A stretch of DNA of 64,000 nucleotides from Paralvinella palmiformis (lineage: Eukaryota; Annelida; Polychaeta; Terebellida; Alvinellidae): NCBI GenBank assembly GCA_025642065.1, contig JAODUP010000578.1:1-64000 (forward strand), written 5' to 3'. The translations under genes and the position numbers were made by a program. Positions 6,176 to 33,243 of this stretch are shown piece after piece. The notes below the pieces were generated by a model. It did no database searches. It was not told where the DNA came from and was given only the letters and a program-made list of their open reading frames with translations. Position 1 is the first letter of the stretch. Each line of letters begins with the position of its first letter.

Positions 6176-6430
6176 ATATTTCTTTCATTGATATCCAATG
6201 CATTTTCATAGCAAGAGTGGGCTTCACACTAGTTGTTCATATAAATGGCCATGGGCATTCTGTGTAGGTCAGTGAGAGTTTACTATGTGGCAACACCAGT
6301 AACTCAGCTGACAGTGGTCTGGCTATTAACAACAACAATGACCAACAGTCTACACCTTTATATATATATATATATATATAATATATTCAATCAACTTTAT
6401 GGCCCAAATAAACTCAGACAAACTTGTTAC

Positions 6431-7017
6431 TTAAAGGGACAGTTCACCCTCAGATAATATTACTTAAATATATAATGCTTTTAACAGTAAAGAAAAATTT
6501 CACAATAATAATTGCAAACTATACTTGATATCGTAGATATCAGGAAATAATACAAATTACTGGAGGGCTGCCATTATAGCTGCACCGGAAGCCAGATTCC
6601 AAGGTGGAAAAGTGAAAAGTCAAGTGCTTTGATGTCACCTGGTTACATAGACTGTCTATGATAGACACAAGTGTTCCCGGTTCTCCTTGCCCTTTCTTTG
6701 AAACAATCAGGTTTATCTTCATCTCGTAATGGTTCTTCTCGCTCAAACTGATATGGCTGAATGTCATCCATGGCATAATTTTAACAAGATTAGTGCATTT
6801 TGTTCTGGAACTATTCTTGGCTAACATTTGTTTATATGCTTTTATATGGGCTCTACAGACTTCTGGTCAAACTGCTAGGTTCAAGTGACGTCAACATTCA
6901 GGAGCTTCCGGTCTCTTTCTCTAGCTTAAAATGTGGTGGCGCCCACAGACCATTAAAAGTCAATTAATCAGCACTTCTGACTGGATAATGTCAAAAGATG
7001 GTGGGCTGTTCCTTTAA
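6431..7017 (+). mobile_element. MITE with TTAA target duplication (Kolobok/T2-like)
   Basis: The left end reads TTAAAGGGACAGTTCACCC and the right end reads GGGCTGTTCCTTTAA, so the ends are inverted and flanked by TTAA. A second copy lies at 19675-20350 with the same internal order (cagataatattactt, ggaggactgc/ggagggctgc, cattcaggag, ttaatcagcactt). The TTAAAGGRR terminus with TTAA duplication is what is known for T2/Kolobok MITEs. piggyBac-type also duplicates TTAA, so the superfamily is not certain. A minus-strand open frame at 6540-6827 lies inside the repeat and is not a gene. Confidence 0.7.
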
Positions 7018-7877
7018 TAATGATTATGATTTTGTTTTAATAATGAGTTCGATTGAGGCCACTGGTTATATTGGCCTAGTTAGTTTGAGCTTATGTCCAC
7101 AATGAGATCAGCTGGAATGAGAGAAATTTTTTTTAGATGATAATAATGATTAGATTTAAACACAGGAAGGAACTGGCTCTAAAAAAGATTGCCAAGTTTT
7201 GCATTCTATGTTAAGTTGAAAGTACAAAATAAAGGACACAAATTAGAGTGCTAGGTTTAAATTATATTCAAGGCATTAAATAAAAATACTGTAGTATAGT
7301 AATTAAGAATCCCACCAAAATCAAAGTTTTTAAATATATATAATACACACTAGACTCTCTTTTAGTACCTTGGAGCCTGTGAGGTACTTAAAATGTACCT
7401 GCTGATATTTATGGCCAAATATGAATCACATGTAAAAACTCTAGAAAGCTATACATGTGAGCAAGCTTAAATTGTTCAATTAGTCTGTTACTGAAGCATG
7501 AAAGGAATTGGTGGAAAATATTACCAAGAAAGTTAATGAAAGTTTCATATTAAAATTTGTTTTTAATTATGTAGTTTTAATATTATATATATATATATAT
7601 ATACCTTTAAGATTAGAGAAAATTAGAACTTGATATTATTTAGTTGTCATAGTAAAACAGAAAGTGAAAAAGGTACACAAGCAAACAATACATATGTTTT
7701 CTTTGGAAACACTTTGCAGATTTCAGTAACAATGATCATAAACTGGCATTCCTTTATAACCCCGATTTAAATGAGATACTGTATGGTGAAGCACAATTGT
7801 TCAAATAAAATCTAAATCATGCCATTTAATTGGTTTCCAAAATGATTATTTGTTCTTTGCAATTAAGGTTGGACATC
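7018..7877. other. Upstream region of the SANT-module gene
   Basis: No clear promoter motif. A (TA)n run lies at about 7586-7602. A plausible splice acceptor (ttctttgcaattaag) ends at 7866, eleven bases before the first ATG, so the true first exon is probably a non-coding exon further upstream that I cannot place. Confidence 0.4.
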
Positions 7878-7962
7878 ATGCAGACAGTGAAACTTCAGGT
7901 AGATGGAGTGATCCACAATATTGCTCTGTCAAGCACAGCTGCTGCCAAGCTTATTGCAGGAG
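7878..7962 (+). CDS. SANT-module gene, coding exon 1
   Basis: Starts at ATG 7878 ([10 protein letters not shown]) and ends with GGA G before donor gtaatt, phase 1. The same frame is open upstream to 7830, but a splice acceptor ending at 7866 and the lack of an earlier ATG favour 7878. The 28-residue N-terminus matches no domain I know. Confidence 0.6.
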
Positions 7963-10900
7963 GTAATTGCATTGTTCGTATAGTTATCATTGAGTATTTT
8001 ATAGTGACATGGGAATGAATGAATGATTGCTTTTTTACTAATATCACTGTTTTCTTCTCATCTGGGACAGATGACTTCTGGGTTGATGAATGGAATTCCA
8101 ATATTACATTCTCCTGTTTAGTGTTTCATCATTAAATGGATGGCTTTGGCCAGATGATTTCAATTCTTACCACAGCCATGTGTTGCAGGTGTGATTAGTG
8201 CTGAAACTAAGCAGAAAATATTACTGATTTGCTTGAAACAGCCTTGAGATCTACAACCATAAAATTATATTACTTATTATTTATGTGGCAAAGAGAGAGA
8301 GTGTGTGTGTGTGATAAAGAACACTCCTATAAGTTACTGCAATAATATAATTTAGCTTTTATTCAATATTAAAAATACTGATTTGGTATATTTATTTCCA
8401 ATAATTGTTTTCTCTTACTGATATCTACAATCTTCTGTGATTTAGATCCGGACATGGTCAATGCTGTAGTTAGTGCTATAAAGTTGACAAAAGGTACGTT
8501 CCAGCAACAGTTTGTATTTCATCTTACGAGAAGTGTTTGTACGTGTATTTAAATACTTCTTTTTGTATTTGACTCCATGTCTAATCCCCCAAATTGTTCT
8601 AAATGGTGAACAAATTTTATAAGTGACACACTTCAAATGAGAATCTGTAGCTTTAACATGTTAACTTTTCCCTAGTATTTATTGTCTGTTAAAAGAAAAA
8701 AGTGAGAATGTTGTCGATTCATCAGAGCCTTTGATGGAGACATCATCTGACATCGCTGAAGTATCATCTGAGTGTGTGACAGATGTGCAGTCCAATTCTA
8801 TGGAACAGGATTCTTCAGATTATCTGGTGGAGCAGTTGGAGTATTTTATTCCTCATGCATCAGAACAGTTGGACCAGACAACAGCTGGAGACCTGGTGGA
8901 TCCAGTGACTGAAGCTCAGGCATTTTCTGTCTCTGAAGCTTTGCCATTAACCTGCTCTGAAGAAGCGCCAAATGCAGACAACCTGTTAGTGCATTCTTCA
9001 GGTAAATTGTTGCTTTCTAATTTTTGCTCATGTCTGTAAGACGTTTCTTCCATCATTGTCTTGTTTCTTAAGAGAGTAGCCCCATGGCCTTTTATCCAAG
9101 GTGGACAATATCTTTCGGGAAATAACTCATCATACCGAAACTTCTTTTTGTCATGAACTGTATTAATTATGAAGCTGAAGAAATAATGTTTCTCAAATTT
9201 ACTAGGGAACAATCTCCTGTGATGATAAAAGCTTTAACTGTGCATAATACTTCGAAAGTCAGTAACCTACGATGCCTCTTGTGTCTATTTTACCATCAGA
9301 GCTCTTGTAAATGTTTATATATTTCTGTGCAAATCAATAATGGCAATGAAAGAAATTGATAGATTTCTGTTTTATCTCACATAACACTGCTGTGTCTCTA
9401 AAATTTACATTAATAATAATGGTCATAATACTTTATATAGATTGGTAATTAATATAATTATGTTTTATCATTATGATATAGTGGACAGCCTTCTGGATGA
9501 TGATACCTGTTCTGATGAAGGTATGTATACTCTCCTGGTTTTAAATTGTTAAATTTATTCCATATTTAGCAGAAATGGGGTCAATTCCATTTTGTCAATT
9601 CCACATCAAATTGATTAATTCCAATTCAATTCCAATTTTTTAAAACTCTTTTTTGTCTAATATTTTTTACAATGAGTAGGTACTCCAAGTACCTAATTGG
9701 AATACCTACTCCGAATAGTTTATATTCCAAGTACGATTGTCATGGAAGAAATATTTCTGAATTAAATGGTAAATTAATTTGTGGATTTAATTTAGTTTGC
9801 CCGATTCTAAAGATTGAACGGGGGTAAATTCCTAAATAGCAATATCTCTATACAGATTACAGGCATGTTATATGGTGGTGTCACTGTGTTGTTGGTGGAG
9901 CCCATGGTATCCAGACCATTTTAATTGGTTAAATACTCATGTGGAGTGCCACAGTCAGTGTGCCTATCTGATATATATATAAGGAACCAAAGTTCTGGAT
10001 CAGTTTGGTTCCAGTATATTGGTAACACCACATGTAAGTGTTAACGTGGTAAAAAATTGCAAAAGCCTAACCACGAGGCGCCTTTAGCTAAAGAGATATT
10101 TTATTATATCAAGTGGTAGATCATAGTTTTGAGTACATCCCCATGTAAGAGTGTATTTTGTAATCATCAAAGATGTGTTTATATTTCACTGCCTGGTTGT
10201 GAGCCTTGAAACAAATGTTTTTGTTTAGTTCCAGTGCTTACTTTGGGAGCCATGGTCAGTGTGCATATCTGAGAAATATATAAGGAACCAAAGTTCTGGA
10301 TCATTATGGTTCCAGTATATTCGTAACACCACATGTAAATGTTAACATTGTAAAAATGTGGATTTAATTTTTTGTAGGGAATTTCTCAATTCCAATTCCA
10401 TTTTTTAAATAATCAATTCCGGAATTGAACTGACCCCATGTCTGATATTTACGTATACTCTATATTTTAACACTTAGTTTATACATGTGAAAATAATTGA
10501 TGAAACATCTGCATGTTTAAATAAATAATACAGCCACACACACACACTTATATTGTTTTAAAAAGTATTCAGTCTGTTCACAAATTTATATATATGAATT
10601 CAACAGAGGAGTTCAAGTGGACAGAAAGTGGAACAACCTCATTTTTGGAACAGTACAAGTTGATGGCACATCGGTTCAACAATGGTCGTGAGAGAAAGAG
10701 TCATCTCTGGCAGGAACTGTCCTTGGTGATGGAAGGCCTTGGCCATGCAGTCACTGGTCCTCAGCTTGACTGGAAGTGGAAGTCACTGCGAAGTCGTTTC
10801 CGGAAGGCACGTGATGGCAGAACCCCAACAGAAAACTTCATCTATTATGAGGCAATGAAGGAATTGTTTGCCCTTGAGGAGATGGCAAATGCACTTCCAC

Positions 10901-13900
10901 CAGTCCTGCAACAAAGCATGATGAGCAATGATGGTACAAATGGTGAGTGATTCTGGAATTGATTTCTCAAAAAGGACTGAGAAGCATGCATTAGATCATG
11001 GTAGCTGAGTGTTGAAATCTGCTAATCTATTGTTGAGCCTTTGTGAACTCGGTGATTGATTCAAACATATGTGGGTACTTGGTTAAGTGTGAAGGTTTGG
11101 GGTTTTTAATTGGGTCATTCATTTCCTGTATGGCATAAGCAGTAAGCACCTTAGAGGGGCAATACAGAATGACCTTTATGTGTATGCATGTTTTTAATAC
11201 CCTTTCACCCTGTCACTCATTTAGATTAGATTGATCACTGTTATTAAAGCTTCCATAGTTCTGGAATTCTGCTTCATTAAAGTGGCATGTTAATGAATCT
11301 CCATCAAGGTAAATAATATTGTAACAGTGGTAACTTATGAATATTTGGCCTCTATCTACCCAGTGAGTGGTGAGAGAGAGAGAGTGGTGAGAGAGAAAGT
11401 AGTTTGCCCCATTTGTCATATAGGCTGGCCAGCCAATGATCATTTTTGTTATAAATCGCACACATTGCTAAATGTTTGGCACTCACTCATGATCCAGTTG
11501 AATAGATGTTGTTCAAAACATTAAGTCCATATTATCTCAGTATGCTGGTTATCTGTGAACATAATTTTTGTAGATTTGGTTATGATCAATTTCTAAGTGA
11601 AATAATATTGGTCTTTTAACATCTTTTTTAGTGTGTTAAAACACTATTCCATCAGGACACAGAATAAGTCCAAAATAATCATGCAAAATAGTTTGGGAAA
11701 GCAAACTTACAGAATTTGTTCACAGTACTTGGTACTTTGATATCAGTTTCTTGATCCTGTTGTTGCTAAGCTTTGTTGCTAAGATTGTCTTTAAGGGCTA
11801 TTTTTATAAAGAAACTGCTCGTAATTCTTTCAGCATTACTGTGCCAAAGTTTAAAACTATTCATTTGGTAAACATGCCTTAAGACATGTTATAAATTATC
11901 CGCTTGCATTCCACTATTTTACTTCCTATTGACACTTGTTTATGTTCGGCTAATAGCTCACAGCTAATATTTACTTGCATATTGATGATTGTATGTTATC
12001 AAACTGAAATCAAATTAAAGAGATTTTCTTTTATACAGTCACTGGAACAGCTAATTTGTATTTCATCTTTGAAAGTCAAGAACAAAAGGCTCCTTTTAAT
12101 GAAGTTTCATTAATCTTCTTTTAGGGGGCATCATGATATGGAGTGAGGAGGCCACGAGACATTTGATATCTCAGTACAAGCTACGTGAAGAAAGGTTCCG
12201 TGATGGCATCGAGAAAAAGAAGCTACTTTGGAATGAAATATCCGAAGTTCTGAAGTCTGTTGGCGTAACGTGTACTGGGGAACAAGCTGAAGGCAAATGG
12301 AAGTCGTTATTGAGAGCATTTCGTAAAGCTAAGACACTTGGCCTGCAGAAAAAGGCATTTCCCTTCTTCACTGAGATGAGTGAGATTGAGGAGGTTGTGG
12401 AAAGTAGTGAATTGGATTACACTGCCGAATCACAGGAACAAGGTAATTTGAGTTTGTACATTATGTGTATGTAAAAACATCAGTTCTGGAGATAAAACTG
12501 GTGAAGCAAACATCGGCAAATTGTTTTACGATGTTTGATATTTGGGGTTCAAGAAATACTGATCACTCTGGAGCTGTATTGTAATATCACAATATCAAGC
12601 CATGCATGCTGAGTTATTTATTAGCCCGTTATGATTGTGATCTGTCATGGTGTGCTCACCATACAATCAGTATATATATATATATATATTGGAATATATA
12701 TATATATATATATATCATTTACTTAGGAACATTCATAAAGTATTTAGACCTAATATATAAATGTCATCATGAAAATAGCATCAGTTGTAACTTCAACTGA
12801 CTACAAAATTGTGTTTTAAGAGGATTGATTTCTATGGAATTTGGATGTTTTAATAAATCAGCACAGTACTACATTTATTAACACATGATTGGCTCTTTAG
12901 TAACAGAATAACGAGTGGTTTCATTAACTAGAAATAGTGTGCGATACCATATGGCCATGACTATGAGAATGTTCCTTTTATCACTGATCATAAACACCTG
13001 TGGTTTTAAGGATGACTTCAGACAAAAACTGATTCTGTAATTTTATTTACTGTTGAAGTATATGATATAATAATATGTTATTGCTACAATAATTAATTAT
13101 TTCAAAATTAAACTTATATGGATTTGTTGTTGTTTTATAAAGATATAGTTATGTCTATTGAATATGCCACAATTTTTTTAATTTGTCATGAATGTTTTTA
13201 ATGTTATGTTAAGGGGAGATGCATTATATAAGCAATGCTTCAAGCATCCTCCTTTTCAATATGCATTTGCTTTCATTAAAATGATATGAATGTTGAAATA
13301 AACAATTTGAATTGAAAACAATCTTTGGCTTCGAAGATTGCAAATGTATAAAGTGTCGCAGAGTACAGAATCACATTAAAAAGTTTTCCTGTGTTTATTA
13401 TTTCACTGGGCTCCCTAGTTGCTGCAATTCAAGTTCTTTCTGAATTATTGTGTAAACTGTTCTATGTATTCCCATATGCTTCATTGGCTTTAAGTAAACT
13501 TGGGCAGCTGTAGAAGGCATCTGGCTTTGTGGAGGCTGTTGCACAACAATGTAATCTGCTTGTCTTAAACACAGCAAGCAGCTTTCTAAATGGCTGAGTC
13601 TAGTTGGTGATCACTACCACCTGGGTTCGAATCTTGGTGTAGGCATATCTAAAGGGTGTTTCATCTTTGACTTCGCTTCATTACTTTTGGAGGTCACTCG
13701 GCCCATTTAGCCTACCATGTGTACAAAAGTGGCCCTAAACATCAATCATCATCAGCTTGAGTCTCTTTCTGTCTTAGCTGAAGGTCCAGTGGACAGATGC
13801 TGCTGTCAGTGTGCTCTTGGATCAGTATACAAGACGTCAACAACGGTTTAGTGGTGATGAGAAGAAGAAGTCTCTGTGGCTTGAGATAACTGAGGCCCTA

Positions 13901-16900
13901 AACCAAGCCGGCTTCCTGTGTACATCGGAACAGGTTGTTGGCAAGTGGAAGACTCTGGTGCGTGCCTTTAGAAAGGCCCAGTCATCTGAACAGAGCCGTC
14001 TTCGTTTTGGATTCTATGAAAAAATGCATGAACTGATCGGAGACCAGGCAGCGGAAGTAACAGAGCAGGAACTGACAGAACAAGGTCAGGATTCTGATTA
14101 ATTTTTATTGGTTCTGTTTTGTGTATTTATAGTAATAATAATAATGGCTGAAATGGCAGTTTTTAACGTGGCTGGCAACCTCAAATGAGGGAGACACATG
14201 TGGTCTGTAATGTATAGCTTCCCCACGGACACTAATTCTAAATAAATTTAGAATATATGGCATGTTCGGTGGAGAAAACCTTGCCATTTACCTGGCTGGA
14301 TGAAAATCTCCTCCTACTATAGTGCCATGGCCAACCATAGCCATAGGCAAATAGTCTCATGCTCTTACCCATGAGGCCAAAGAGGTGGTATTTACTCATT
14401 GGCTCGTGGGGGTCTGAGGCTTTAGAATTAGTTCGCTGTATCCCCACAGAAGTTATAAAAGCAATAACTAAAACAGGTGCTACTAAATGCTGTTTTTGAT
14501 GCTAGTATGATACTCGGCAATACTTCCTTTCACTCACTTACTCACTATTTGATCCATATGAATAAACATTAAGCTAATTGAAAGCAGTAGTTTTTATCAG
14601 GTAAGAAGGTTTTCCTGAGATATTAATTTTGGTTTGTTGTAAACAAAAAGAATTTGCTGGTTTTTCCGAAGAACCTTCTAATTATAAATGCTAGTGATTA
14701 GTGAACAAGATGAGGGTGGATTGGTCACAAACTCCGGAAACCAGCATCAACTATCACCAGGCAGGCCCTAACATGGTACCCACAAGGAAAGAGAAAAAGA
14801 GGACACCCAAGAAATACGTGGAGAAGGGATCTCCTGACAGACACAAAGAGGACAGGTTACAGCTAGAGGGAGCTTGAAAAGAAAGCCCAGGACAGAAGAC
14901 TTTGGAAAACTGTTGCCAATGACCTATGTCCCAGGAAGGGTGAAGAACAAGTGAACAAGATGCCTAAAGAGCACATTATGCACTGTCATTATATCTGTGT
15001 TCTTGCAATAACTACAGTATATAAGCTTACTAAACTTACTGTAAATGTTCCATTTCTTTTATAATAAATTAACAAATACAAATACCAAGTAGATGGAAAC
15101 ATTTTTTTAAAGAATTTTGATATCAATTATGGAATATCTAAAATATGTTCCCATCGTGTGATGTGTGTGGATTTATTTTATTTCTTCACATTTGATTAAG
15201 TGCTAGTTGATTTCCAGAACATATGGGTAAGGGTCATCTTCCTATTGAAACATCCAACAAACACAGACAGGAGTTGGATTTGAAACCTAATCTGGATGTT
15301 TACAGTGCAATGTTTTAACTACTGTGCTATTGGAATACCCTTGATTATATGATAATGTACCCATGTAGCAAATCAGAAGTATAAGCTTGTCATTTTCTCT
15401 GTCTGTGCGTGTTTGTGTGTGCAGTGGTTCTAAATTAAACCTTTTCTGGTCACAGCTCATATCCACCCCCTACACAAGTGTACTTGTTAGCAGACAATAT
15501 GATGTCCACAAGCTATAGTATGACAGCTATTTTAATATACTGATATATATCTCATTTGAGTTTTAGTAAAAGTACAAATATTAACCAGAATGTTTTTGTG
15601 GGGTTATCACTCTGTCATTATAAAATTGTTTATTCCATACAGGATTTAGATCACACTCAGTAATAAATACAAATCCTGGTTGTCTTTTCATTGCAGAGAT
15701 GCAGTCTCTCTGGAGTGATTCTGCGGTGAAGTTGTTCCTTGATGAATGCCAGAAACGACAAGACCTCGATTCCTTCTCTCCGAGTGTCAGCCTATGGACA
15801 GAAATGGGAGACGTCATGGCGTTGCATGGCCACCGCTTCACACCAGAGCAGATTCGAAGAAAGTGGCGCTCACTGAATGAACAGTTCTTCAGCTGTTTAA
15901 CACAGAATGTGTCATTTGCATACCACAAACAAATGACAAATCTTGTTAGCGAGTCCCAGTTAACTAAGTGGGAGCCTTCTCACGATGAATCTCCTACAAA
16001 TTTTGGTAAGAAATAGGAAGTTTTATTTAATATTTTTATTGTTATTATTATCATCATTATCATCATAAATATTGTTTATTTTATGCCTTTTCCTGTTAGA
16101 TGTATCTCATTTCAATTTACCATTTTTTAGTTTATATTTTGTGGTAATCCTCCTTGTTTATACTCTACCTTTATCATCATCCCCAGTCGTTTGACTTTTT
16201 AACTCTCTGTTTACAAACTTTAAGCTGTTTTCCCTCAAATGTTCTGGGACACTGAATGGCCTGATTTGTGTCAGTGTGTCATAAAATAACATCCATCCAT
16301 CTTTTTTGTGTCAGGTGTGTCTCGTTTCATTGTGTTATCTTATTCGATGAATGACATGATGCATTTTTAGGATAACTTATAATTTTAATATTTGTTGTTG
16401 TACAACTTGCAGTTTTATTGTTTTGATGAATTCGTTGACAACAATGTAGCGCACATATGTGAGATGCATATGAAAATTCAATCAAAACGGCTTTTTGTAG
16501 TGAAATTGGTTCATTTGAAAAAGTGTATAAATGCAGTTATGACTTTCTTCTCTAGCCGCTGAAAGGATGTGGACGGACATCGCCCTTAAGATATTCCTAA
16601 CCGAATGCCAGTCAAGGAAGCACCAAAGTTGTCGGCCGAGAGAAAGCGAGATCTCTGGACTGAAATATCCGCAGCTCTGCGGGCAAATGGCTATGGCTTC
16701 ACAACGGACCAAGTGGAAAACAAGTGGAAGAGCCTCTACAGAAGATACAAGAAGGCGAAGTGCTCAAGACAGACTGCAGAACGATTTCCTTACTTTGAAG
16801 CTATGGAGGAACTCGCACAGTTCTATGACAAGACTGAGAGTCACGTGGCTGGTGATTAACGCTTAACACTTTATATTAAAGTGGTTGAATTGGTAAAAAT

Positions 16901-19900
16901 ACAACTGATGGCAAATAGCTGTTGGGGGATAATGTTGCATTTGTGAGTGAGGGAAATGTTTTCTGGTTAGTGTAAATCTAAGCATTTATTGTGTTTGTTT
17001 GAGTTAAACAATATTTATTTTTCCCAAATGCATTAAATGCATATACAGATGGGTCAAATGTCCTTGTTTAGTATTCTGGTTTTCAAATTTGAAATAACTC
17101 GTATTCGTTGCCATTTATTATTGCATGACTAGTTGATGGATTGTGGACGGCTGAGGCAGTGTGGAGCTTTCTTCATTTGTTGGATGAGAGGCAATCTGTT
17201 TATGGAAAGATAAGCAGAGGATTGTGGGAGGACATCGCAGTGTCACTTCGGGACAAAGGCTTCACGTTTACAGCAGATCAGATCCAGCATCGGTGGAAGA
17301 TTCTCGTCAAGGAGTTCAGAAAAGCTGCTGGTTTAAAGAGACCCGAAGAAAAATTAGTCTACTTCAGTTTGATTAAGGAATTGATTGAGAAAGGATGCTT
17401 GGATGATGGTGAATAGTTTCTGCATATCTTGACCCTGTGTAGTGTTTAATGCAAGTTAAAGGCTTAGAATGCTCACTTTTACAAACAAATTTTTAGTGGG
17501 ACACAAAAAATGTAATATCCTCAGAACTGTGTTCACCATAAAGTCATTTTCTTTAAGCACTTGATCATCAATTTGTAGAAATAGTTCTTGACTGTATTTC
17601 TCAACATAATTGTATTTTTTTCCTGTCAAAGTTTTGATTTTTGAAATGTAACACTTTTTTGGACAATCACTGTTAAAATTACCATTATCAAAAACTTGCC
17701 AACCTTGCTGCAAATATTTATTAGTGTGTATGTGTGTTACATCAGATTAGTAGCCTTTAAGCGCATACACATACATATATGTACATGCAAACATATTTCC
17801 ACAAAGATGAACTCAATGCCAAATACACACATATGATGTTAAATATTTGTGGATAAAGATGATAATGGATCTATGATATATGTAGACAAGACTCGTTGCT
17901 ACAACAACAAATCACACAATCAAATGCAATTTATTTTCATATTTCAGTCATCACAGATACAGGTATCAGATGTAACTGTGGTAGAATCAGGAAGTCATAC
18001 GATGATCATCCTGACGGCTGTCTGATCTGTCTTGGCTGTACGATCAACAACAAGTGTCCTGACTGCTCAAAGTGGCCTCAAACAAAATGGAACAGAATAA
18101 CACATCATCAGAACAAACAAGGATCATCATCATCCATCTCTGGGAAGATTGAATCTGTGGATGGTATGCTCATTTGTCATAATTAAACCAAATCAGTTAT
18201 AGTCAGGGTATATAAAATGTTATTCCCATGAAATTAATAGATCTGCTTTGTTCTTTTTCTTCATTTCTCTCCTTCGTTATAAGCATTTTCTTATGTCTGG
18301 ACTACAGTGTAGAATCTTAACACACAGTCTCTTGTTAATTGTATGGCATACTGTCGTTATGCTGCATCCCATGGTGTGTCTTCAGTCACACGTTCATCTG
18401 TTTTAACAGAGTCATCGGTGAAGTTCACCAAGCAATGTTTTTGTGAATTGGTTGGGAAAAGTGGTGAGAGGGAGTGTTAAAAAGAGGTTATGTAATCTGT
18501 TATATCTTTATTTTCATAAATGTTTCTTATGGGTGGTAGTCTTGAGTGATGGAGCACTTTTTACTGTGGTACGTGATCTAAAAATACCAGCAAGAATTAC
18601 TAAGTTTTCTGGTTGAAGATTGCTACATTGAGACATTTTGAATTGAAATAATGAGCAAATGTAAGTGAAAATTTTTCTTTCTCATAATGAATGACCACTG
18701 ATACGTAAAGGTGGAATCTAAGTGTTAATTTGCTTGATGGTGGCTATTCTGTGAAGAATTCATAACAGATCAGAAATTAATAATAAAAGTGAATATTGAC
18801 ATATGCAAAGGGAAATGCAAGCATCAGACTAATTAATTTATACAAAATTGCCACTGCTTGATTATTTAAACAAAGAAATAAAGCAGTGAGAAAAGCAGAG
18901 ACAAAATATGAATTTCAAATTGCATCAATTCCTGTGGTTACGACAGAGTTAACCATAACCCTTTGACTCTTTGAGCCTATTCTTTAGTGACTGGATGGGT
19001 ACCCCATGGTCTAACTGGTAGCCCGGTTTGGCCCCGGATCTATAACACCTGGGTTCAAATCCTGACTGGGCTATGTCAGGGAAAGGTTGTTTCATCTTTC
19101 ACTTCACCTCATTACCTTTGGAGGTAGCTCGGCCTGTTTAGCCTACCTTGTGCATAAAAGTGGCCGTAAAACAGCAACATTTTACATTTAGTAACTGAAT
19201 GAACAGAGAATTGTAATTAGAAGCCAGATTTATACTTATATGTTACATTACCTTTCCTATAGGAGTAATAACATCGGATGAAATAGACAGAGGACCAGCA
19301 GATTCTGAAGGTATACAGCTTTAATATCTTCACGTTATTATACATATTTTATTTAAATAGGACATATAGTAAAAGGAATTTTATACACTTCATAACCCAT
19401 CCAACCAAATCTATTCAGTACAAATAAGTCTTACCAATTTTAAATATAACTTATGCGTCTGATAGGATGGATAGCTTATATTTTGTGTTGTTTATGATCA
19501 GATATATTGGCGTTATTCTATCAAATCTATTAACAAATATCAATGTTGCCATAACCATTGTTAACTTAAATGACTGATCTGAAGGAAGATTTGCACATAT
19601 CAGCATCATTATATCGGCCATAATGCTTAAAAAGGACCATTTTTGTTTACCATGTAGATATTTTGTTTTTATAGTTAATGGGATAGTTCACCATCAGATA
19701 ATATTACTCAATTATGTAATTCTTATAACAGTAAACAAACATTTTGTAATAATAATCACGAACTGTACCTGATATCATAGACATAAGGAAATAATCCAAA
19801 TTACTGGAGGACTGCTATTATGGCTCCACCGGATGCCAGATTCAAAGGCAGGAAGGAAAAAGTCCTATGATGTCACCTGGGCCAGGAATACACAGAGTTC

Positions 19901-22900
19901 ACATAGACATGAGTTAGTGTTCCCAGTTCTCCTCGTGTTTTCTTCGAGGATTCCACTTTCTTCAAAACAATCGGAATCATCTTCATCTTGTAATGGTTCT
20001 TCTGGCTCAAACTGATATTGCTGAATGTCAATCATGATTTAAATTTAGCGAGATGTTTTGTTCTGGAATTATTCTTAGCTAACACTTGTTTACGTGCTTT
20101 TAAATGGGTTATACAGACTTCCAGTCAAATCGCTCGTTTCAAGTGATGTCAACATTCAGGAGTTTCCTGTCTGTGTCTAGATTCAAAATGGCGGTGCACA
20201 CAGGCCAATAATAGTCGATTAATCAGCACTTTGAACCAGATTATTTAATATGTTGTTGATTGTTTTCACATTTTGACATTATTTATAATATTTGTGAATA
20301 TAGCTGTATTAGTCCTGAAAATTTAAAATGAGGGTGAAATGTTCCTTTAAATATGTTTTGTTCCATAAAAAGTCATAACATAATATAGTTATAATTCTTG
20401 TACTGATTGCCAAACAAGATATTTTTGTTATGGTTAATATTATTCATGCTAGTTTTATATGCGATGTGCTGATAATGTTTCAATGTTTTTTAAAATATTT
20501 TGGATGTAAAGGAGACTGTATTTGGCCACACAGAGCAACCGAAATCTTTCTGGAAACTTGTCATCGACAGAAGATGAAATTGGTTGAAAAACGAAAGCAC
20601 GGCCTCTGGGAGGAGATATCTGAGGAACTACAAGTGAATGGTTTTGATTTGAGCACCGAGCAAGTAGAGAACAAATGGAAATCTTTGTACCGGAAATACA
20701 AGAAAGCCAAGATGGTGGACAAAAGAAACAAATCTTTTCCATACTTTGATCAGATGATGGAGCTTGTAGAATATTTTGAGAAGAAGGCAGATGATCTGGC
20801 AGGTAGGTTTTCTATGATATTTTTATCGTGGCTTCTCTTCCAACTCTTTTTTTAAATTGTCTCGCTATTAAGTACAACCAAAATATAACCTGCAGATCAG
20901 CTATAAATATTCAGTTTAATGTTATTTCCTGGTTTCAACTAATAAATAATAATAATATCATGTTTCTATCACTTCATCCAACATCTCATTTTCTGACAGT
21001 TTATATCAATATGATAGATTGTACAATCATTAGACGAACTATTAAACTTGCTAACATTACAAAGGTCAAGGATATAAAATATTAAAAAGTTGAGTCTTAC
21101 AGTAACATTTATACTTGCTATTGAATGAATAATGTCAGCTTATTTGGGAGTTGACTATAATGTGGACATAGACGCAGATGTGGGGCAGGTACGTTGTAAA
21201 TGTATCTCATCCCCTTAATTTTGAAAGGTCATGCTTTATTAATTGAGAATGTTGAGGATAGATCATTCAGAAGATTTAAGACGATCCATGAGAACAAGAT
21301 GAAACCTCTACATGAATTACTTTATAGTCTCGATGGAAAATTAACTGTAAATCCCATCCCGGTACAATTATGAAATGATTTATTACCCATGACAAGTATA
21401 TGACGAAAAAGATCCATGTGAACAATCCCATATCATATAGAAACAAGCTATCTAGAGTTTGTGCATAAACAAAAGAGTCTGAAATGGATGGTCACATATC
21501 TGAAATGTATCTACTTTGTATCTAAATAAGCCACAGTTATAATTGATGATGAGAGTGTTTAGATGTAGGGTATATGGACGGCTGATGTAACAACGTGAAG
21601 TCTGTTTCAGAGCTATGGAAAGTTCAGTAACCAAACATCTGAAGCTCAAAGATTCTACCAAATCATAAATGGTATTTTTTTAACAGTTTATATAATTTCA
21701 AGACAATAATACATCAAGTGTTGTTATTTTTACAGTTGATGATAAATGGTCACCCGATGCCATAGAACTCTTAATAAACGAATATACGGCAAGGAGAAGG
21801 AAGTATGGACTCGACGAGTCAGAGAGATTGTGGGCCCAAGTGACGGCTGTACTTCAAGTGAAGGGTTTTGACTTTATACCGGATCAAGTCCAGTACAGGT
21901 GGGAGATGCTTCTGACATTGTACAGGAAGGCTAGTCGATCACCGAAACCTCAGCAGTACTTCTCATTCTATGACTTGATGAAAGATGCTGTTGCAAATAA
22001 GGCAGAGGGAGAGTGTGAAAAAGAACTGGTACCAGACCATGAAAAGGACTTAACAGTTGTTAGTGACACAGGACAACATCTGGCTGATGGTAAATCAGAA
22101 TTAAGAAATGAAATTGTCTCTGAATTACTGACCAGATTTAGTTAATGGGTCATTCTTTGTCTGTCTAATTCTTATAGCAGTAAGTTAATTCATTTTTATT
22201 TTGTACTGAATTTAGAGCATCTGAATCACTGTTTATATGGTGAGATGAAATCATTTGATAAACATCCTGATGGCTGTCTGTCATGTCTCAGTTGTAGTGA
22301 GGGTAGGGCTTGCAAAATCTCAAGACTGACTATAACCCATGTTGAAGCTGATAAGACAATATCTTATAGCTACAGTGAACAGATACCTAGTACAGAACAA
22401 CTATCAGATGCTAATAATTATTACTCAGCAATATTGAGAGCTACTGTACAAATTCTCATTTCGTTCGAGGTTTGAAATCTGTTATTCAGATCATAATTCT
22501 TTTTTAATTTTGTTTGAAAACTATTGGTTTTTGTTTCTGAATTAAAGCTATTACAGCAAATTACTTTTGTCTAAATTAACTCCTGATGTGATGATTAGGA
22601 AGCAGATATCTATTTGATCTGAAGTCAGAAACTTGAATACTTTTGTTCTTTTTCATGATGATAATTTCAGTTCAAAGTATTATAACTTTGCTGTCCGTCT
22701 TGTTGTTGACTCGTTGTTGTATACAGCCATCCAATTAGCATAACCAGGCCTAGTATGCGTGAATATTCGTGAATATTCCTGGGTGCATCGTGCTAAAACA
22801 CCAAGATTGCTTTTGCAGCTAAACTAGGATTTTCATGTTATATAAAATGAGTCATTTGTTTTGCATATTTCTTCCTATCTGTTAGTTATCATTTCCTTCC

Positions 22901-24196
22901 ACCATCACTTTAGCATCTGTAGAATGTGATGATTTGGTCAAGGAATAACTCCCTACTCATATCATCTTGGAAGTGAAAAATTTATCTTCACTCGCTGTTG
23001 ATGATGATTTGGCTTCTAGTAATTTATGCGCCCATTTATGGAGTTTAGATAACTTTCATATCTCATGCCATCACTGATGGTATCAGGAAATGAAAATATA
23101 GTCTGTCCAGGATGTGATGATATGTGGAAAGGTAAGATTCTGCCTGCTGATGATTGGTCATGTCATTGTCGTCAAGCGTGACAGTACCTCCAGAATTGGG
23201 GCTGTTACCTACTTCTGTGTGTCCGTCACTGAATCATTTAAACAGACTCTGTTTAACATGAAAATTAATATCTTGCTGGTATGTGAAGCTAAACAATAAA
23301 GATACCCTGGTAGTAAACTATTAACTGCTTAGCATATGTCGCATAAACATGATATGAGAAACTGTTAAAATGGATAATACACACGTTTTCTCACTTGCTG
23401 TCAATACAAATATTAAAATCTATTAATTACTTTTGGGATTGGCTGAATACCAGTGTAAGACACCACGACTCTAACATAAGATTATACATAAAGAGAGATT
23501 TTTGTAAATAGCAATATTTTTTATATACTTCCAGACCTTCTTCGTCTGTAGAATGAAGTTTTAAGTTAATTTCTATCATTTTGTGCCTTTATTTGTTCAG
23601 GTAACTTCAGTAAGTGGACAACGGAGGCTGTACAGATTTTATTCGATGAGTATGACCTACAGAAGGATAGATTCCAAAATGAGTGTGATGATCTGTTGTG
23701 GCCGGAGATCACCGAAGTGTTGGAATCAAAAGGCTATGACTTCACAACAGATGAGCTAGAGATCAAATGGAGAGAGCTTAGAGGCAACTTGGTAGAAACA
23801 GATTCAACACTTGAAGCTGAAAGTGAAAAACGATTAACAACAGTTGTAGGTCAGGCAGAGAATACATCCTACAACAGAAGGTCGTCATTACGTCTTCGGG
23901 CAAAACCAAAACGAAAGTATCCGTTGGATGTCATCTTGTCGGATGGCTCCAACTCAAAGCATTCGGAATCAGGGGGAACGCGAAAAGCTGCTTCAACCAA
24001 GCAAAACATTGCTGCAACGTACACTTCTCAGGGATGTCTTCGGTCGAGTGGTGCTACTGATCTGAAACGGTTTCTTAGGAATTTTGTTCAGAAGCAGATA
24101 GAAGTTGAGGATAGATCATTCAAAAGATTAAAGACGGTTCATGAGAACAAGATGAAATCTCTGCATGAATTACTTTCTAGTCTCGATGGAAAATGA
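7878..24196 (+). CDS. Modular protein with nine Myb/SANT-like domains and cysteine-rich modules (whole gene span)
   Basis: About 18 coding exons sum to roughly 1336 codons if two one-base frame problems (exons 7 and 9) are discounted. Nine exons each encode one Myb/SANT-like (Myb_DNA-bind_4, trihelix type) module: a start W-T/S, a helix with a Y/C-x-x-R/K core, LW-x-E-I/V, an F/G-x-T-x-x-Q stretch, KWK-S/T-L or RW, and a basic R/Y-KKA helix, then an aromatic F-Y/Y-F helix. Shorter exons carry an HPDGCLxCLxC cysteine motif or CPxC. The last exon adds a basic stretch and a helical tail. Almost all junctions are phase 1. In known families this fold binds DNA or bridges proteins, so a nuclear role is inferred. 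I do not recognise a named orthologue. Single-transcript membership of all exons is inferred from phase and splice sites only. Confidence 0.75.
8446..8493 (+). CDS. SANT-module gene, exon 2
   Basis: 48-base symmetrical 1-1 exon between acceptor gatttag and donor gtacgt. It encodes [16 protein letters not shown], a short predicted helix that continues exon 1 in frame. It is too short to have been picked up as an open frame by itself. Confidence 0.6.
8696..9001 (+). CDS. SANT-module gene, exon 3 (acidic linker)
   Basis: 306 bases, 1-1, from after aaaag at 8695 to the G before donor gtaaat. Encodes about 102 residues rich in S, E, D, T and Q with no predicted fold. This looks like a disordered acidic linker or activation-type region. 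The acceptor has a weak pyrimidine tract; the nearby alternative cctag (8675) would hit a stop in frame. Confidence 0.6.
9482..9520 (+). CDS. SANT-module gene, exon 4 (mini-exon)
   Basis: 39 bases, 1-1, acceptor gatatag and donor gtatgt. Encodes [13 protein letters not shown], an acidic linker continuing exon 3. Confidence 0.55.
9570..10444. mobile_element. MITE with GTCAATTCC inverted ends, interrupted by an insertion
   Basis: Left end aatggggtcaattcc, right end gaactgaccccatgtctg. The interior contains the palindromic stretch taggtactccaagtacct shared with copies at 36865-37177 and 55207-55572. Another repeat is inserted at about 9794-10356, with gtggatttaattt on both sides of it. It lies in an intron of the SANT-module gene. 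Confidence 0.7.
9794..10356. mobile_element. Insertion inside the MITE, built of two related units
   Basis: Flanked by a 13-base direct repeat (gtggatttaattt at about 9781 and 10357), as expected of a target duplication made by a retroposon. It has two similar units (9953-10055 and 10246-10355) sharing ataaggaaccaaagttctgg and ccagtatatt. No coding capacity is seen. Confidence 0.5.
10607..10942 (+). CDS. SANT-module gene, exon 5: Myb/SANT-like module 1
   Basis: 336 bases, 1-1, acceptor attcaacag and donor gtgagt. Module begins [17 protein letters not shown], then [35 protein letters not shown], then the aromatic [12 protein letters not shown] helix and a short polar tail. It belongs with modules 2 and 3 (the QYK..RF form). 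The open frame starts in the intron at 10594, but the acceptor sets the real border. Confidence 0.75.
12125..12442 (+). CDS. SANT-module gene, exon 6: Myb/SANT-like module 2
   Basis: 318 bases, 1-1, acceptor cttcttttag and donor gtaatt. Shows [55 protein letters not shown] and [13 protein letters not shown]. Closest in pattern to module 3. Confidence 0.75.
13590..13760 (+). mobile_element. tRNA-derived SINE, family A
   Basis: Contains a tRNA-like B box (gggttcgaatc) followed by the shared body aaagggtgtttcatctttgac, cattacttttggaggtcac, gcctaccatgtgtac and gtggccctaaacatcaatcatcatc. Related copies lie at 18995, 34925 (-), 57555 and 63450 (-). It ends about 17 bases upstream of the acceptor of exon 7. 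Confidence 0.7.
13778..14084 (+). CDS. SANT-module gene, exon 7: Myb/SANT-like module 3 (phase break)
   Basis: Encodes [55 protein letters not shown] and [14 protein letters not shown]. The best acceptor (ctgtcttag, ending 13777) leads into the domain frame in phase 0, whereas the previous exon ends in phase 1. TAG at 13775 blocks upstream extension. The exon is 307 bases, one more than a multiple of three. The end is taken at CAA G before a weak gtcagg donor; without splicing the frame stops at 14101. Confidence 0.65.
14165..14400 (-). mobile_element. SINE, family D
   Basis: Reverse-complement match to 62925-63150 (ggagaaaaccttgccatttacctgg against ggcatggttttctccaccg, attctaaataaatttagaat, tgtaatgtatagcttcccc). 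The other copy begins with a tRNA-like head, so this is a tRNA-derived SINE. The overlapping minus-strand frames at 14105-14447 are repeat sequence. Confidence 0.6.
15215..15350 (-). mobile_element. tRNA-derived SINE, family B (degraded)
   Basis: On the minus strand the order is a promoter-like B box complement (tttgaaaccta), anticodon-side sequence actgtgctattgg and the body. It is related to 26650, 30190 (-), 57765 and 63205 (-). Confidence 0.45.
15697..16005 (+). CDS. SANT-module gene, exon 8: Myb/SANT-like module 4
   Basis: 309 bases, 1-1, acceptor cattgcag and donor gtaaga. Shows [52 protein letters not shown] and [13 protein letters not shown]. This is the most divergent module: the usual basic K-K-A helix after KW-x-SL is replaced by FFSCLTQ. 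Confidence 0.7.
16556..16851 (+). CDS. SANT-module gene, exon 9: Myb/SANT-like module 5 (frameshifted)
   Basis: Acceptor cttctctag sets phase 1 and gives [18 protein letters not shown] in one frame. From about 16610-16630 the module continues in another frame as [20 protein letters not shown], then [16 protein letters not shown] and [14 protein letters not shown]. The exon is 296 bases, one short of 297, so a single base is missing in this sequence. The other half of each frame gives non-homologous residues. Donor is a weak gtgatt. Closest paralogue is module 7 (exon 14). It could be an assembly error or a real lesion. Confidence 0.7.
17133..17408 (+). CDS. SANT-module gene, exon 10: Myb/SANT-like module 6
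   Basis: 276 bases, 1-1, acceptor gactag and donor gtgaat (weak). Encodes [56 protein letters not shown] and [12 protein letters not shown]. The RW in place of KW pairs it with module 8 (exon 15), which also begins with VDD/VDG. Confidence 0.7.
17948..18163 (+). CDS. SANT-module gene, exon 11: cysteine-rich HPDGC module
   Basis: 216 bases, 1-1, acceptor catatttcag and donor gtatgc. Encodes [18 protein letters not shown], then [22 protein letters not shown] and a polar serine-rich tail. Seven cysteines in CxC, CxxCxxC and CxxC pairs plus histidines suggest metal binding. I know no named family with this order. A paralogue, shorter and missing one cysteine of the first pair, is exon 16. Confidence 0.65.
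18410..18463 (+). CDS. SANT-module gene, exon 12 (mini-exon with CFC)
   Basis: 54 bases, 1-1, acceptor tttaacag and donor gtgaga. Encodes [18 protein letters not shown]. The QCFCEL core resembles the RCNCGRI start of exon 11, so it may be a decayed copy of the front of that module. Confidence 0.5.
18995..19175 (+). mobile_element. tRNA-derived SINE, family A
   Basis: A-box-like ccatggtctaactggtagc and B-box-like gggttcaaatcc, followed by the family body (gtttcatctttcacttcacc, cattacctttggaggtagctcg, gcctaccttgtgcataaaag). Confidence 0.75.
19263..19310 (+). CDS. SANT-module gene, exon 13 (mini-exon)
   Basis: 48 bases, 1-1, acceptor cctatag and donor gtatac. Encodes [16 protein letters not shown], an acidic linker. 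Support rests only on phase and splice sites. Confidence 0.45.
19675..20350 (+). mobile_element. MITE with TTAA target duplication, second copy
   Basis: Left end TTAATGGGATAGTTCACC, right end GGGTGAAATGTTCCTTTAA. Same internal blocks as 6431-7017. It lies in the intron before exon 14. Confidence 0.7.
20512..20802 (+). CDS. SANT-module gene, exon 14: Myb/SANT-like module 7
   Basis: 291 bases, 1-1, acceptor gatgtaaag (poor pyrimidine tract) and donor gtaggt. Shows [54 protein letters not shown] and [20 protein letters not shown]. It shares [15 protein letters not shown] with module 5, and both end in ..AG at the donor. The open frame extends to either side, but splice sites trim it. Confidence 0.75.
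21235..21371 (+). pseudogene. Duplicate of the terminal exon's 3' end
   Basis: Bases 21245-21345 closely match 24104-24196 (gttgaggatagatcattc, catgagaacaagatgaa, tagtctcgatggaaaa). The frame is open: [18 protein letters not shown] and [11 protein letters not shown], but the stop TGA is changed to TTA, and the frame runs nine codons further to a TGA at 21371. It sits between modules 7 and 8. It is either a relic of an internal duplication or an alternative last exon. No clear in-phase acceptor was seen. Confidence 0.7.
21736..22089 (+). CDS. SANT-module gene, exon 15: Myb/SANT-like module 8
   Basis: 354 bases, 1-1, acceptor tttttacag and donor gtaaat. Begins [20 protein letters not shown], then [35 protein letters not shown] and [14 protein letters not shown], followed by a 40-residue acidic tail. 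It pairs with module 6 through RW and the VDD/VDG start. If the donor is skipped the frame ends at 22145. Confidence 0.7.
22216..22302 (+). CDS. SANT-module gene, exon 16: cysteine-rich HPDGC module, second copy
   Basis: Acceptor gaatttag, phase 1. Encodes [20 protein letters not shown] and CLSCSE, paralogous to exon 11 but with CLY instead of CNC. A phase-1 donor gtaggg after TGT AGT GAG G gives a symmetrical 87-base exon. An earlier gtgaga donor at about 22241 is possible, and the frame stays open to 22475, so the 3' border is uncertain. The missing CPxC part may be supplied by exon 17. Confidence 0.55.
23087..23131 (+). CDS. SANT-module gene, exon 17 (mini-exon with CPGC)
   Basis: 45 bases, 1-1, acceptor ggtatcag and donor gtaaga. 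Encodes [23 protein letters not shown] resembles CPDCSKW at the end of exon 11, so the second cysteine module looks split over exons 16 and 17. Confidence 0.55.
23601..24196 (+). CDS. SANT-module gene, terminal exon: module 9, basic stretch and helical tail
   Basis: Acceptor tttgttcag, phase 1, stop TGA at 24194. The first part is a Myb/SANT-like module: [52 protein letters not shown]; its last aromatic helix is missing. Next is a basic run, [11 protein letters not shown], a likely nuclear localisation signal, then a serine-rich linker. The tail [18 protein letters not shown] to [12 protein letters not shown] is a charged helix typical of dimerising C-termini in SANT-type proteins. Confidence 0.8.
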
Positions 24197-26339: not shown

Positions 26340-28030
26340 TCAGCTCCGTTCAGCCACCAGCTGACTGCGTTCAATCAGAGGCCTCGTCTCATCCGATTCA
26401 GAATCTGATCCGGTCATCGTCAATCTCCTGTCCACACTCTGACTTGAGCCTAAACCAATAAAAATGGATGTTAAAGAAAACGAGGCATTCCATGGTCTGA
26501 TAATCAAATGAAAAAAAAAACATTGTGGAAGTTCTAGCTTCGCAAAGATAGTTCAGTCATCATCATCATCATCATCATTCTTATTTTGTAGCCACATAAC
26601 TGTGTTAGGCTGAGCAACAAGTCAGACATTTGCTTAACGCAGGTAGTAACAGAAGTCAACAACGTGTATAGACACAATCGCTAGAGTACTGCACTACAAA
26701 CTTCCATGTTGTGGGTTCAAATATGACTCATATCCATATTTGTGATATTTGTTTACCTAGTTAAACGTCCCTCAGCCATGTCCCAGGTGTGATCCGTGCC
26801 AAGGCTAAACAACTCAAGAAAGGATTCGTATACATGTTTCGCAGTTATTTATTAAACTGAGCAGACTTAATTTTTGAAACTACTTCACACACTGTGTGTA
26901 AATATGTGTACAGATCTGGATATAATTTATTATACAAATGATGATGATGATGATAATGATAAATAAATAACACTGGAATATATAGTTTGTATCAGTGATT
27001 ATTCAGTTATGAATTTATGGTACTTATGCACAGAAGGAAAAAACCAGTGTATCATTTGAATTTTACCAAAATAATTTATCAATAATTTTCTCTGACCTTG
27101 GTGTATCATTCCTATGTTCGTCAAAGCCAGAATGAGTATGACAGCGAAAGCTAAACCACAGACACCACCAAGTACAAAACCTAATATCTGACGATAATAC
27201 AGCGCACTTGCAGCAGAACATTCAGTGACCTCTGACCTGTGTAGAGATAAATACTATAAATTACAAAACTGATGGTTACAGAAAAAAAGGTGTATTATCA
27301 TTATTGTCAGCCATTTAAAAAAGGCACATTACATACTCTAATACTATGGTTGTTACATAGTTTAGTTTGTTTGTTTATCGTTCATGCATTTTCTTTTTTC
27401 AAAACAGTTTGAAGTTCTGATATCAAACCTTTTAAAATAACTACCTGTAAACAATTTCACATTAATTCGCTGACTTGCACCAACTCGGCTATAACAAAAG
27501 TATGCAGTGCAAACTGTCCAGACAGATGCCATATCACAAAAATTTTATTTACCTATTCCGCAAACTCTTCTACAGCTGAGTGTGTGTGTGTGTGTGACTT
27601 GTGCTTTGGGTGCTGAGAGCAAAACAAATGTGGCACTATATAAATATTGTACTATAATAATAATGTATTAAATGAGTATTTAATAATACTTCCGCTCTGA
27701 TCACTAACAAGGCAATAACGGATAAATAAGTAGCTGATTTTTTATGGATGATCACTCTTAATTTGGATTGTTTGTAATTTCACAGAGTCTGTAGCAATCC
27801 ACTTTGGTATTAATTTCAGTGACACAACAGCACCATTTAAGGAGGTATTTTTGGCTAGAATACATCAAGTTATGGTGTTTTAGGAAATCTTTGTTTACTC
27901 GGTCAACTAATTTGAACTGTACATTTGGTGCTTAATTAAGTCATCTAGGAATCCCAAACTAGATTACTCTTGGTGCCAGAAAGATCTAATCAGGGAATGT
28001 CTGAATCTGAGAGCAGTGATTTTATATACA

Positions 28031-28084
<54 letters not shown>

Positions 28085-31000: not shown

Positions 31001-31859
31001 TACTGCCATTTTTGGGGGCTGATTCATCTGCAAAGGTACCAATAATGATGTGGCGATAAAGGTGAAACATTTCAGATATAGCTATGTCACGATGTAGAGT
31101 TTGGATGCCAGAGGTCTGTGGGCAGAGACATTACCACGTAAGCCAAAGAGACACCCACACAGAACAACAACATAAGTTGATTAAGGCTCTATTAAAAAAT
31201 TATTATTATTACTGGTCTTCTGTGCACTTGTTACTTGACACAGACAGAAATCAGTATCTAATGGAATGATGAGGTGTTATACATCTATCACTGGTGGCTA
31301 GAAATATGGTACTTTTTATGGATTTGAAAATGGCTTTCAACCGTATGGCTGTTTACCTGCATAATGAAGCAGACATAAACAAGTTCCGAGTTCCTAGAAC
31401 AGAGGAACTGGTTTGAGCCGAGAACTTTGGCAAACAAAAAATTAAATAAATGAGATATATTCCAAACGTAAACCAGCGATGTGGATAAACGAAGCACTCT
31501 CTTACTCGCTCACTCTAAATGATGCAACAAACTGTCCGGGAAAATGTTACAATCTGCTCACCTTACGTCCAGCTTCTTCATCAAAGGGCTTCATCATGAA
31601 TGATGCTATGAATCCACTGATGAACACGACCAAAGGCACGATGGCTATATACTTCTGTAAAGAAATATGATAATTATCACAAACATATAGACAAGTGACA
31701 TGGTATAGAAGATCAGTCCTGAATTATAAATCTGGAGATTCTCTCAATTTAAACATGATCCTTTTATGCTGATTCAGATATTATTATGGGCAGTTAGGCT
31801 TGAAATGTGTGTGTGAAATTTCTAAGCAGCATGTTTATTATTTAATTGAGTTCTTCAAG

Positions 31860-31896
<37 letters not shown>

Positions 31897-31901
31897 ACTT
31901 G

Positions 31902-31942
<41 letters not shown>

Positions 31943-32084
31943 GTTGCAGTTAATCTGTATAATCAGGTAATCTGTATATTATGTGAAATCTTCAGGTAAT
32001 CTCTGTTAAATCTGTTAGAAATAGACGTATTACTTAAAAGATTTCAGGTAATATACATATTACCTGATTATACAGATTAACTGT

Positions 32085-32124
<40 letters not shown>

Positions 32125-33212
32125 CACACACCTATATGGCCAGTATATAGATTGAGGAATGGGTGATAATGTTGGAGCTGATATCATAATCCCATAAATT
32201 TCCTGTACATTTTCTAAACACGAGTTGATAATAAATGTAAAATAATTATGTCGTAATGTATATCCCAGCCTCAAAGCTAAACAAGGTATTCTCTCATTCT
32301 GTATAACATTAAAATAACAACATAAATGTGGAGCTACTACATAGCTAACTGCATAATACCAATTTAAACAAAAATCAATAATTGTCACCATGACTACTGG
32401 CACCACGAAAGCGTTTACCTTGTGTAATTGTAAAGAATGCAGGACAAACATCGGTAAGTATATCTGTGACAGAGTAAAGACCAACCGTGTACACACGTAG
32501 ACCAGAGTGACCTGCAGTCAAAAAATAAAATCAATCCTTATTCTAGCATGCACTGACCGCAGCTCAGTTTCTATTGAGGATACAATATATAATTAATTAT
32601 CATATTGAAATAAATCTGTCATAATTGATCGAGGCTAACAGAACTGTCAGCTTTACTAAATATAATACCATCTGTTACGTATAATTTTGTTGTACAATTG
32701 TCTAGTTCTTTTTTCTTGATGGATATGAAAACTAATTTGCACAAAAATGTTAATCTACTCTTTTTAAGGCTATTTGCATAGTTCTAGCACCAAACGTTAT
32801 TAAAGAATTGTGACTCAATTAGTATATTTGTATAAATATAAAAATAAAGAACGACAGATATATTTTAGCAATGCCAACACTGGAGATAAATGCGATGGGA
32901 ATGCTGTACGGAAAGATACCAACCAGATAAAATCTATACTCTTTGAGCCAGTGCATCCAGGTGTAACTCTGAAGCGATATTGGTTGTAAATACTCAACAC
33001 GATGGGTTTGATAGGTCTCATCTGTACTACCATAAGATTGCGATGAGCATGTACTGTAAACATGTTGGTCACATGACTCTTCTTTGGTCCCAATATGAAA
33101 AATGATGGTAAAGATCATACCAACACCAACAGCTATGAGTACTATCTCCTGAAATAAGCCAGATGTAAACATTTTACATGTGTGTGTTTGTCTGTGCATG
33201 TGTACACATGCA

Positions 33213-33243
<31 letters not shown>

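Follow-up and report, generated by a model that had tools for sequence, protein, structure and literature searches.

The window analysed here, 64,000 nucleotides of Paralvinella palmiformis DNA, contains nine stretches (M1–M9), all on the + strand between 10.6 and 23.8 kb, that a profile search matched to the trihelix-type Myb/SANT-like family PF13837. In-frame joining of exons gave a gene model of 14 exons and 13 GT-AG introns, all phase 1, with an open protein of 1099 residues; seven of the nine modules fit this model, and M3 and M5 do not. The model runs from an ATG at 7878 to a stop at 24196, in agreement with the preliminary description, whose proposal of a single gene with several modules, carried on symmetrical phase-1 exons, is supported by the open 14-exon model and by three exons matched from other public contigs. 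Of the 17 introns, nearly all phase 1, that had been claimed, the phase holds (13 of 13 in the model) and the number falls to 13, or 15 with M3 and M5. Scans for tRNAs and Rfam families across the window returned no match.

Exons and splice sites

All features lie on the + strand, and splice sites were scored with generic matrices that were not trained on this species. Four exons precede the modules. The first coding exon, E1 (7878..7962), begins with the ATG that starts the open model and has a phase-1 donor (7.3); its exact start is uncertain because an open frame with another ATG extends as far upstream as 7830. It is followed by a mini-exon, E2 (8446..8493), whose best acceptor (5.0) and donor (9.6) are both phase 1, and by an acidic exon, E3 (8696..9001), with 23 D/E against 1 K/R over 102 residues. 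E3 has a phase-1 donor (8.5), and its phase-1 acceptor (2.0) scores below a phase-2 site at 8676 (5.6). The mini-exon E4 (9482..9520) is weakly supported, with a phase-1 donor of 8.9 and an acceptor of just 1.2, as is another mini-exon at 19263..19310, which is in frame and bounded by AG and GT.

In the scored stretches, the top-scoring donor of every exon (14 of 14) was phase 1. For the modules, where acceptors were sought within the 45 nt preceding the first Trp codon, the top site was phase 1 in eight of nine. When the whole open stretch was scored, the phase-1 acceptor was not the top site for E3, E4, M7 and Cys2. The weak or outscored acceptors of E3, E4, M6, M7 and Cys2 count against a one-gene explanation.

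The trihelix modules

Eight of the nine modules passed the curated PF13837 cut-off (27 bits; profile length 89). M1 (10607..10942) scored 53.2 bits and M2 (12125..12442; acceptor 7.7, donor 7.3, phase 1) 52.9. The off-frame M3 (13778..14084) scored 55.5, M4 (15697..16005; acceptor 10.1, donor 6.9, phase 1) 34.5, and M5 (16556..16851) 53.1, the last value being for the part after a frame break near 16.62 kb. M6 (17133..17408; weak acceptor 0.8, donor 6.1, phase 1) followed with 40.2, M7 (20512..20802) with 60.7 and M8 (21736..22089; acceptor 6.8, donor 5.5, phase 1) with 36.9. The exception, M9, reached 24.9 bits and covers only profile positions 3–67 of 89. It lies in the last exon (23601..24196; phase-1 acceptor 10.0), which continues into a basic stretch and a conserved C-terminal helix. 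The SANT-like score that the preliminary description had proposed to look for is thus present for PF13837. None of the nine modules passed PF13873 (Myb_DNA-bind_5; cut-off 21.7 bits), the other family it had named, for which three modules were listed and M7 was best at 20.9. Its nine full modules survive as nine PF13837-like stretches, of which M9 is below the cut-off and M5 is split between frames.

PF10545 (MADF; cut-off 22 bits) was barely passed by M3 (22.2), M5 (22.1) and M7 (22.6); we discarded it as the best family for these modules since PF13837 is far stronger in each. M7 also exceeded the PF12776 cut-off (24.5 versus 23.6 bits). In a sequence search of solved structures, GT-1 gave the sole matches at E ≤ 1 (n = 2). 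The modelled fold of M7 (pLDDT 85) is a GT-1-like helical bundle, plant GT-1 heads the results of the fold search, and Foldseek returned no match at E ≤ 0.001 for the modelled module. The DNA-binding domain of fission yeast Sap1 shares 12% identity and a likeness of fold alone, with a Z of a kind that can be common among helical bundles. The charge of the third helix ranges from +6 to −1 across modules.

Frame breaks in M3 and M5

M3 departs from the symmetrical pattern: the acceptors that leave the module whole (13778 and 13784) are all phase 0, no phase-1 acceptor is present, and M3 therefore cannot be joined in frame to any other exon of the model, its donor at 14084 being phase 1. In M5, the first part is in a different frame from the remainder. 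Inclusion of M3 brings a premature stop at residue 402, inclusion of M5 at 606 and inclusion of both at 402, and the frame stays open when both are skipped.

Two explanations, each of which we hold to be a serious possibility a little short of an even chance, can be given. The breaks may be sequencing or assembly errors, so that the gene makes a nine-module protein. M3 and the post-break part of M5 are otherwise intact, as their PF13837 scores attest, both exons have strong splice sites at either end (acceptors 8.5 and 8.7, donors 8.3 and 6.9), and the end branch of M5 in the tree is short (0.028), unlike that of a long-dead exon. Errors would, however, have to fall twice in the ~0.6 kb of M3 and M5 and spare the remaining 14 exons, 3.3 kb in total, and in a control too small to weigh much neither the three best actin matches nor the best HSP70 match (661 aa) had an internal stop. 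A split HSP70 copy (n = 1) looks decayed rather than misread because residues are missing as well. Alternatively, and to us just as credibly, the breaks may be genuine, with M3 and M5 left out by splicing or, as poison exons, now and then included to shut the message down. The stops on inclusion and the open frame on skipping fit this, as does a SINE-like repeat that ends ~40 nt upstream of the M3 acceptor; against it, the splice sites of M3 and M5 score on par with those of working modules, and the sequence therefore gives no ground for expecting constant skipping.

Cys-rich exons and repeated segments

Two Cys-rich exons interrupt the row. Cys1 (17957..18163) ends in CPDC and has phase-1 acceptors of 6.1 (at this position) and 6.4 (at 17948) and a donor of 6.4; a Pfam scan assigned it to no family, and structure prediction gave no usable model (mean pLDDT 49.8). 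Cys2 (22216..22302) has a weak acceptor (1.1) and an uncertain 3′ end, as donors at 22302 and 22374 are both in frame. It resembles Cys1; none of 2000 shuffles did as well.

The M7–M8 intron holds a partial copy of the last exon (21246..21347), with 93 of 102 bases identical to 24.1–24.2 kb. In the coding register the 102-base copy shows eight differences, two synonymous, five residue-changing and one stop-removing. This copy looks recent and, judged from these changes, is probably dead; its use as an alternative last exon is disfavoured given the lost stop and the mostly residue-altering changes. Its position between M7 and M8, together with the twofold order module–Cys exon–module (M6–Cys1–M7 and M8–Cys2–M9), could indicate that the locus comprises two or more separate genes. 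We regard this as improbable: the copy has lost its stop through changes that mostly alter residues, a single reading frame spans all 14 exons, and one start-type and one end-type exon were found and no more.

A segment of ~600 bases is common to 6428–7025 and 19672–20358. A genome-wide search gave 3612 first-look candidates, 40 of which were scored, and at least 43 matches. The segment is an interspersed repeat, and a duplicated promoter was rejected for that reason.

Age of the array and related exons

The modules are 22–51% identical to one another. Their third codon positions differ at 50–80%, and for 34 of the 36 module pairs this is the most divergent of the three positions. Exons from other public contigs matched M1 (P0002, 84% identical), M7 (P0001, 71%) and the last exon (P0004, 55% across 193 residues, with the basic stretch and the C-terminal helix nearly unchanged). 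In the tree M1 pairs with P0002 (99/99) and M7 with P0001 (99/97), not with their sister modules. The duplications thus look old, and the array does not appear to be growing. We rejected the ongoing expansion on the basis of the tree, codon positions and identities; the growth by exon duplication that had been envisaged is not supported as stated, given the low identities, the grouping of M1 and M7 with outside exons and the fact that the only recent-looking copy looks dead.

That the array as a whole is a pseudogene in decay, as the broken frames in two of nine modules and the interspersed repeats inside the gene might suggest, is very hard to reconcile with 1099 open residues across 14 exons, the constraint pattern by codon position and a C-terminal part nearly unchanged between sources, and we consider it highly unlikely.

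The matches in other sources cover three single exons. A search with the full-length protein among 7311 candidates gave none at E ≤ 0.001, so that a shared module order elsewhere would be conjecture, which counts against the one-gene explanation. A literature search of partial coverage found no published account of such a gene.

The same genome contains a second gene (C1894:335923-342346, minus strand) with three PF13837 modules over the cut-off. Its acceptors are best in phase 1 in three of three modules; phase-1 donors are present in all three and best in one. E2 resembles a mini-exon of this gene (equalled or bettered by 1 of 2000 shuffles). Its modules nevertheless form a clearly separate group in the tree from those of the array and, unlike for the array gene, a similarity search found no Cys exons in it. 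The C-terminal helices of the two genes are weakly alike (equalled or bettered by 54 of 2000 shuffles), and we did not retain their homology.

Discussion

Taken together, we think it probable that the locus is a single animal gene for a long, multivalent, predicted nuclear DNA-binding protein with a row of trihelix domains. A short N-terminal part would be followed by an acidic stretch and by successive GT-1-like Myb/SANT-like domains with two Cys-rich inserts; a basic stretch resembling a nuclear signal and a conserved C-terminal helix would complete the protein. Modules whose third helix is strongly basic (M1, M2 and M7, and M3 and M5 if used) may contact DNA jointly, and the protein might thereby hold clustered or extended sites, with the less basic M4, M8 and M9 serving as spacers or protein binders. 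The acidic exon could meet the transcription or chromatin machinery, and the C-terminal helix could link protein copies or recruit a partner. Phase-1 symmetrical exons may have permitted the origin of the array through old duplications; such exons also allow splicing to leave out a single module and stay in frame, which would make the interruptions of M3 and M5 tolerable if they are real. A broader proposal, which we find unlikely, is that of an ancient group of modular DNA-reading proteins in animals, whose symmetrical trihelix exons are spliced in varied combinations so that one gene yields many specificities, with M3 and M5 now being lost.

Members of the plant trihelix family carry one or two copies of the domain. 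Among animal proteins, ZSCAN20 and ZSCAN29 have two domains of trihelix type and also bear SCAN and C2H2 zinc fingers. Neither the SCAN domain nor C2H2 fingers were found among the exon peptides scanned here, which places the gene outside ZSCAN20/ZSCAN29. Human MSANTD3 is described as nuclear and as having a Myb/SANT-like domain; a figure legend places one such domain in its N-terminus (PMC5315303). Compared by description, animal MSANTD proteins such as MSANTD3 have the same domain type, with MSANTD3 shown to carry it in single copy. Relative to plant GT-1 and PF13837 (Myb_DNA-bind_4), the locus stands out by the number of modules in a single gene, seven to nine, with a phase-1 exon for each.

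If transcribed as one message, the gene would correspond in animals to a zinc-finger array, but with units of another DNA-binding fold, each encoded by a removable exon of its own. Both the antiquity of the modules and the three-module gene point to a small family that may be traceable across animals, and such a family would offer a route to asking how multivalent DNA readers arise and lose units.

Gene model and splice phases

The preliminary description placed nine module exons of one gene, each encoding a trihelix-type Myb/SANT-like module (M1-M9, plus strand), between 7,878 and 24,196 and had nearly all introns in phase 1. In our spliced model, 14 exons join in one open frame of 1099 residues through 13 GT-AG introns, every one of phase 1; seven of the nine modules are in this model, and M3 and M5 do not fit. 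With generic scoring matrices, the highest-scoring donor was of phase 1 for all 14 exons scored (M3 and M5 included, the last exon and the mini-exon at 19,263 left out). For eight of the nine modules the top acceptor in the 45-nt stretch preceding the first Trp codon was likewise of phase 1; M3 lacks a usable phase-1 acceptor. Several observations count against the model: the phase-1 acceptors of E3 (the acidic exon), E4 (a mini-exon), M7 and Cys2 (a Cys-rich exon) were not top-scoring over the whole open stretch, that of M6 was weak (0.8), and support for two mini-exons, E4 and the one at 19,263, is weak. Where Cys2 ends on its 3′ side is uncertain; the frame stays open with either of two candidate ends.

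Frame breaks in M3 and M5

No acceptor of M3 both gives phase 1 and keeps the module whole: the acceptor it has lies 12 nt ahead of the first Trp codon, whereas in each of the other eight modules this distance is 11 or 14 nt. In M5 the reading frame shifts near 16.62 kb. Translation stopped at residue 402 when M3 was included, at 606 with M5 and at 402 with both, and the frame remained open to its end when both were skipped. These breaks may be real, or they may be assembly errors. The remaining 14 exons are clean; as controls for frame breaks, none of the top three actin matches had an internal stop, and the best HSP70 match stayed open across 661 residues. Another HSP70 copy (locus L029, C1542:775264-776970) is split over frames and is also missing residues, and may thus be a decayed copy. 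Among its best candidates, a search of the assembly showed no further copy of the array.

A repeat that we read as SINE-like occurs at window positions 13609-13739, 18991-19190 and 34944-35108 and twice in the stretch on contig C1894; one copy stops about 40 nt short of the M3 acceptor, on its upstream side. The segment common to the regions upstream of E1 (the first coding exon) and of M7, at 6428-7025 and 19672-20358, was set aside as an interspersed element of which the genome holds many copies. The M7-M8 intron holds a copy of the last exon that has lost its stop and carries five residue changes and two silent ones, and so gives little support for a second gene end.

The array gene adjoins a transporter gene on the minus strand (26340-36657), which looks MFSD12-like; its piece at 36313-36657 passes PF13347 (28.9 bits, cut-off 27), and the remaining pieces have weak matches or none. 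On the plus strand, 58642-58887 may be a dynactin p22-like exon (18.6 bits, under the Pfam cut-off of 25.2).

A second gene with three modules

Across the 594-Mb genome, PF13837 gave at least 11 matches, at least eight in the window and at least three on C1894; these counts are lower bounds, and M9 is among the matches missed. The C1894 matches form a second gene on the minus strand (C1894:335923-342346, loci L009-L010), with three modules (39.2, 34.9 and 33.1 bits) and phase-1 boundaries. The best acceptor was phase 1 in all three, and each had a phase-1 donor at the module end, top-scoring in one. A mini-exon near the gene start resembles E2, a mini-exon of the window gene (1 of 2000 shuffles as good), and the C-terminal helix is weakly like that of the window gene (54 of 2000).

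Age of the array and matches elsewhere

The preliminary description had the gene growing by exon duplication and making many isoforms. No recent expansion of the module array was evident, and by its sequence the array is old: identity between modules is 22-51% (with M5 represented by its second part alone). At third codon positions 50-80% of sites differ between modules, and in 34 of 36 pairs this position diverges most, the pattern to be expected of coding sequence under constraint.

A module profile search of 5.8 billion proteins returned two with E ≤ 0.001 among 164 candidates. P0002 is 84% identical to M1 (next best module, 46%) and P0001 71% identical to M7 (next best, 51%). Read from their protein letters, both appear to run past the exon end, which would fit the same kind of splice donor. 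The tree pairs P0002 with M1 (99/99) and P0001 with M7 (99/97), with M5 adjoining the latter pair at lower support (84/85); six of its 11 inner branches lack resolution. Counterparts of M2, M3, M4, M5, M6 and M8 were looked for in the protein searches and not found, and a full-length search gave no protein at E ≤ 0.001 among 7311 candidates and thus none that would show this order of modules elsewhere. With the last exon, two of 111 candidates matched: P0003, with 158 of 159 residues the same, is probably the window's own sequence, and P0004 is 55% identical across 193 residues, with the basic stretch RAKPKRKY unchanged and the C-terminal helix almost so.

The fold and family are already known. 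No account of an animal array of such modules on phase-1 exons turned up in the part of the literature covered, PMC5315303 included; public annotations may contain predicted proteins that carry many of these domains.

Proposed working of the protein

The third helix is strongly basic in M1 (+6), M5 and M7 (+5) and M2 and M3 (+4), moderately so in M6 (+3) and weakly charged in M4 (+2), M8 (+1) and M9 (-1, partly aligned). Cys1 and Cys2 have in common the letters HPDGCLxCLxC and might bind a metal; a profile scan assigned them to no family, and structure modelling yielded no usable model. In the working that we suggest, a subset of modules would bind DNA jointly, the acidic exon E3 would contact the transcription or chromatin machinery, and the C-terminal helix would join molecules or recruit a partner.
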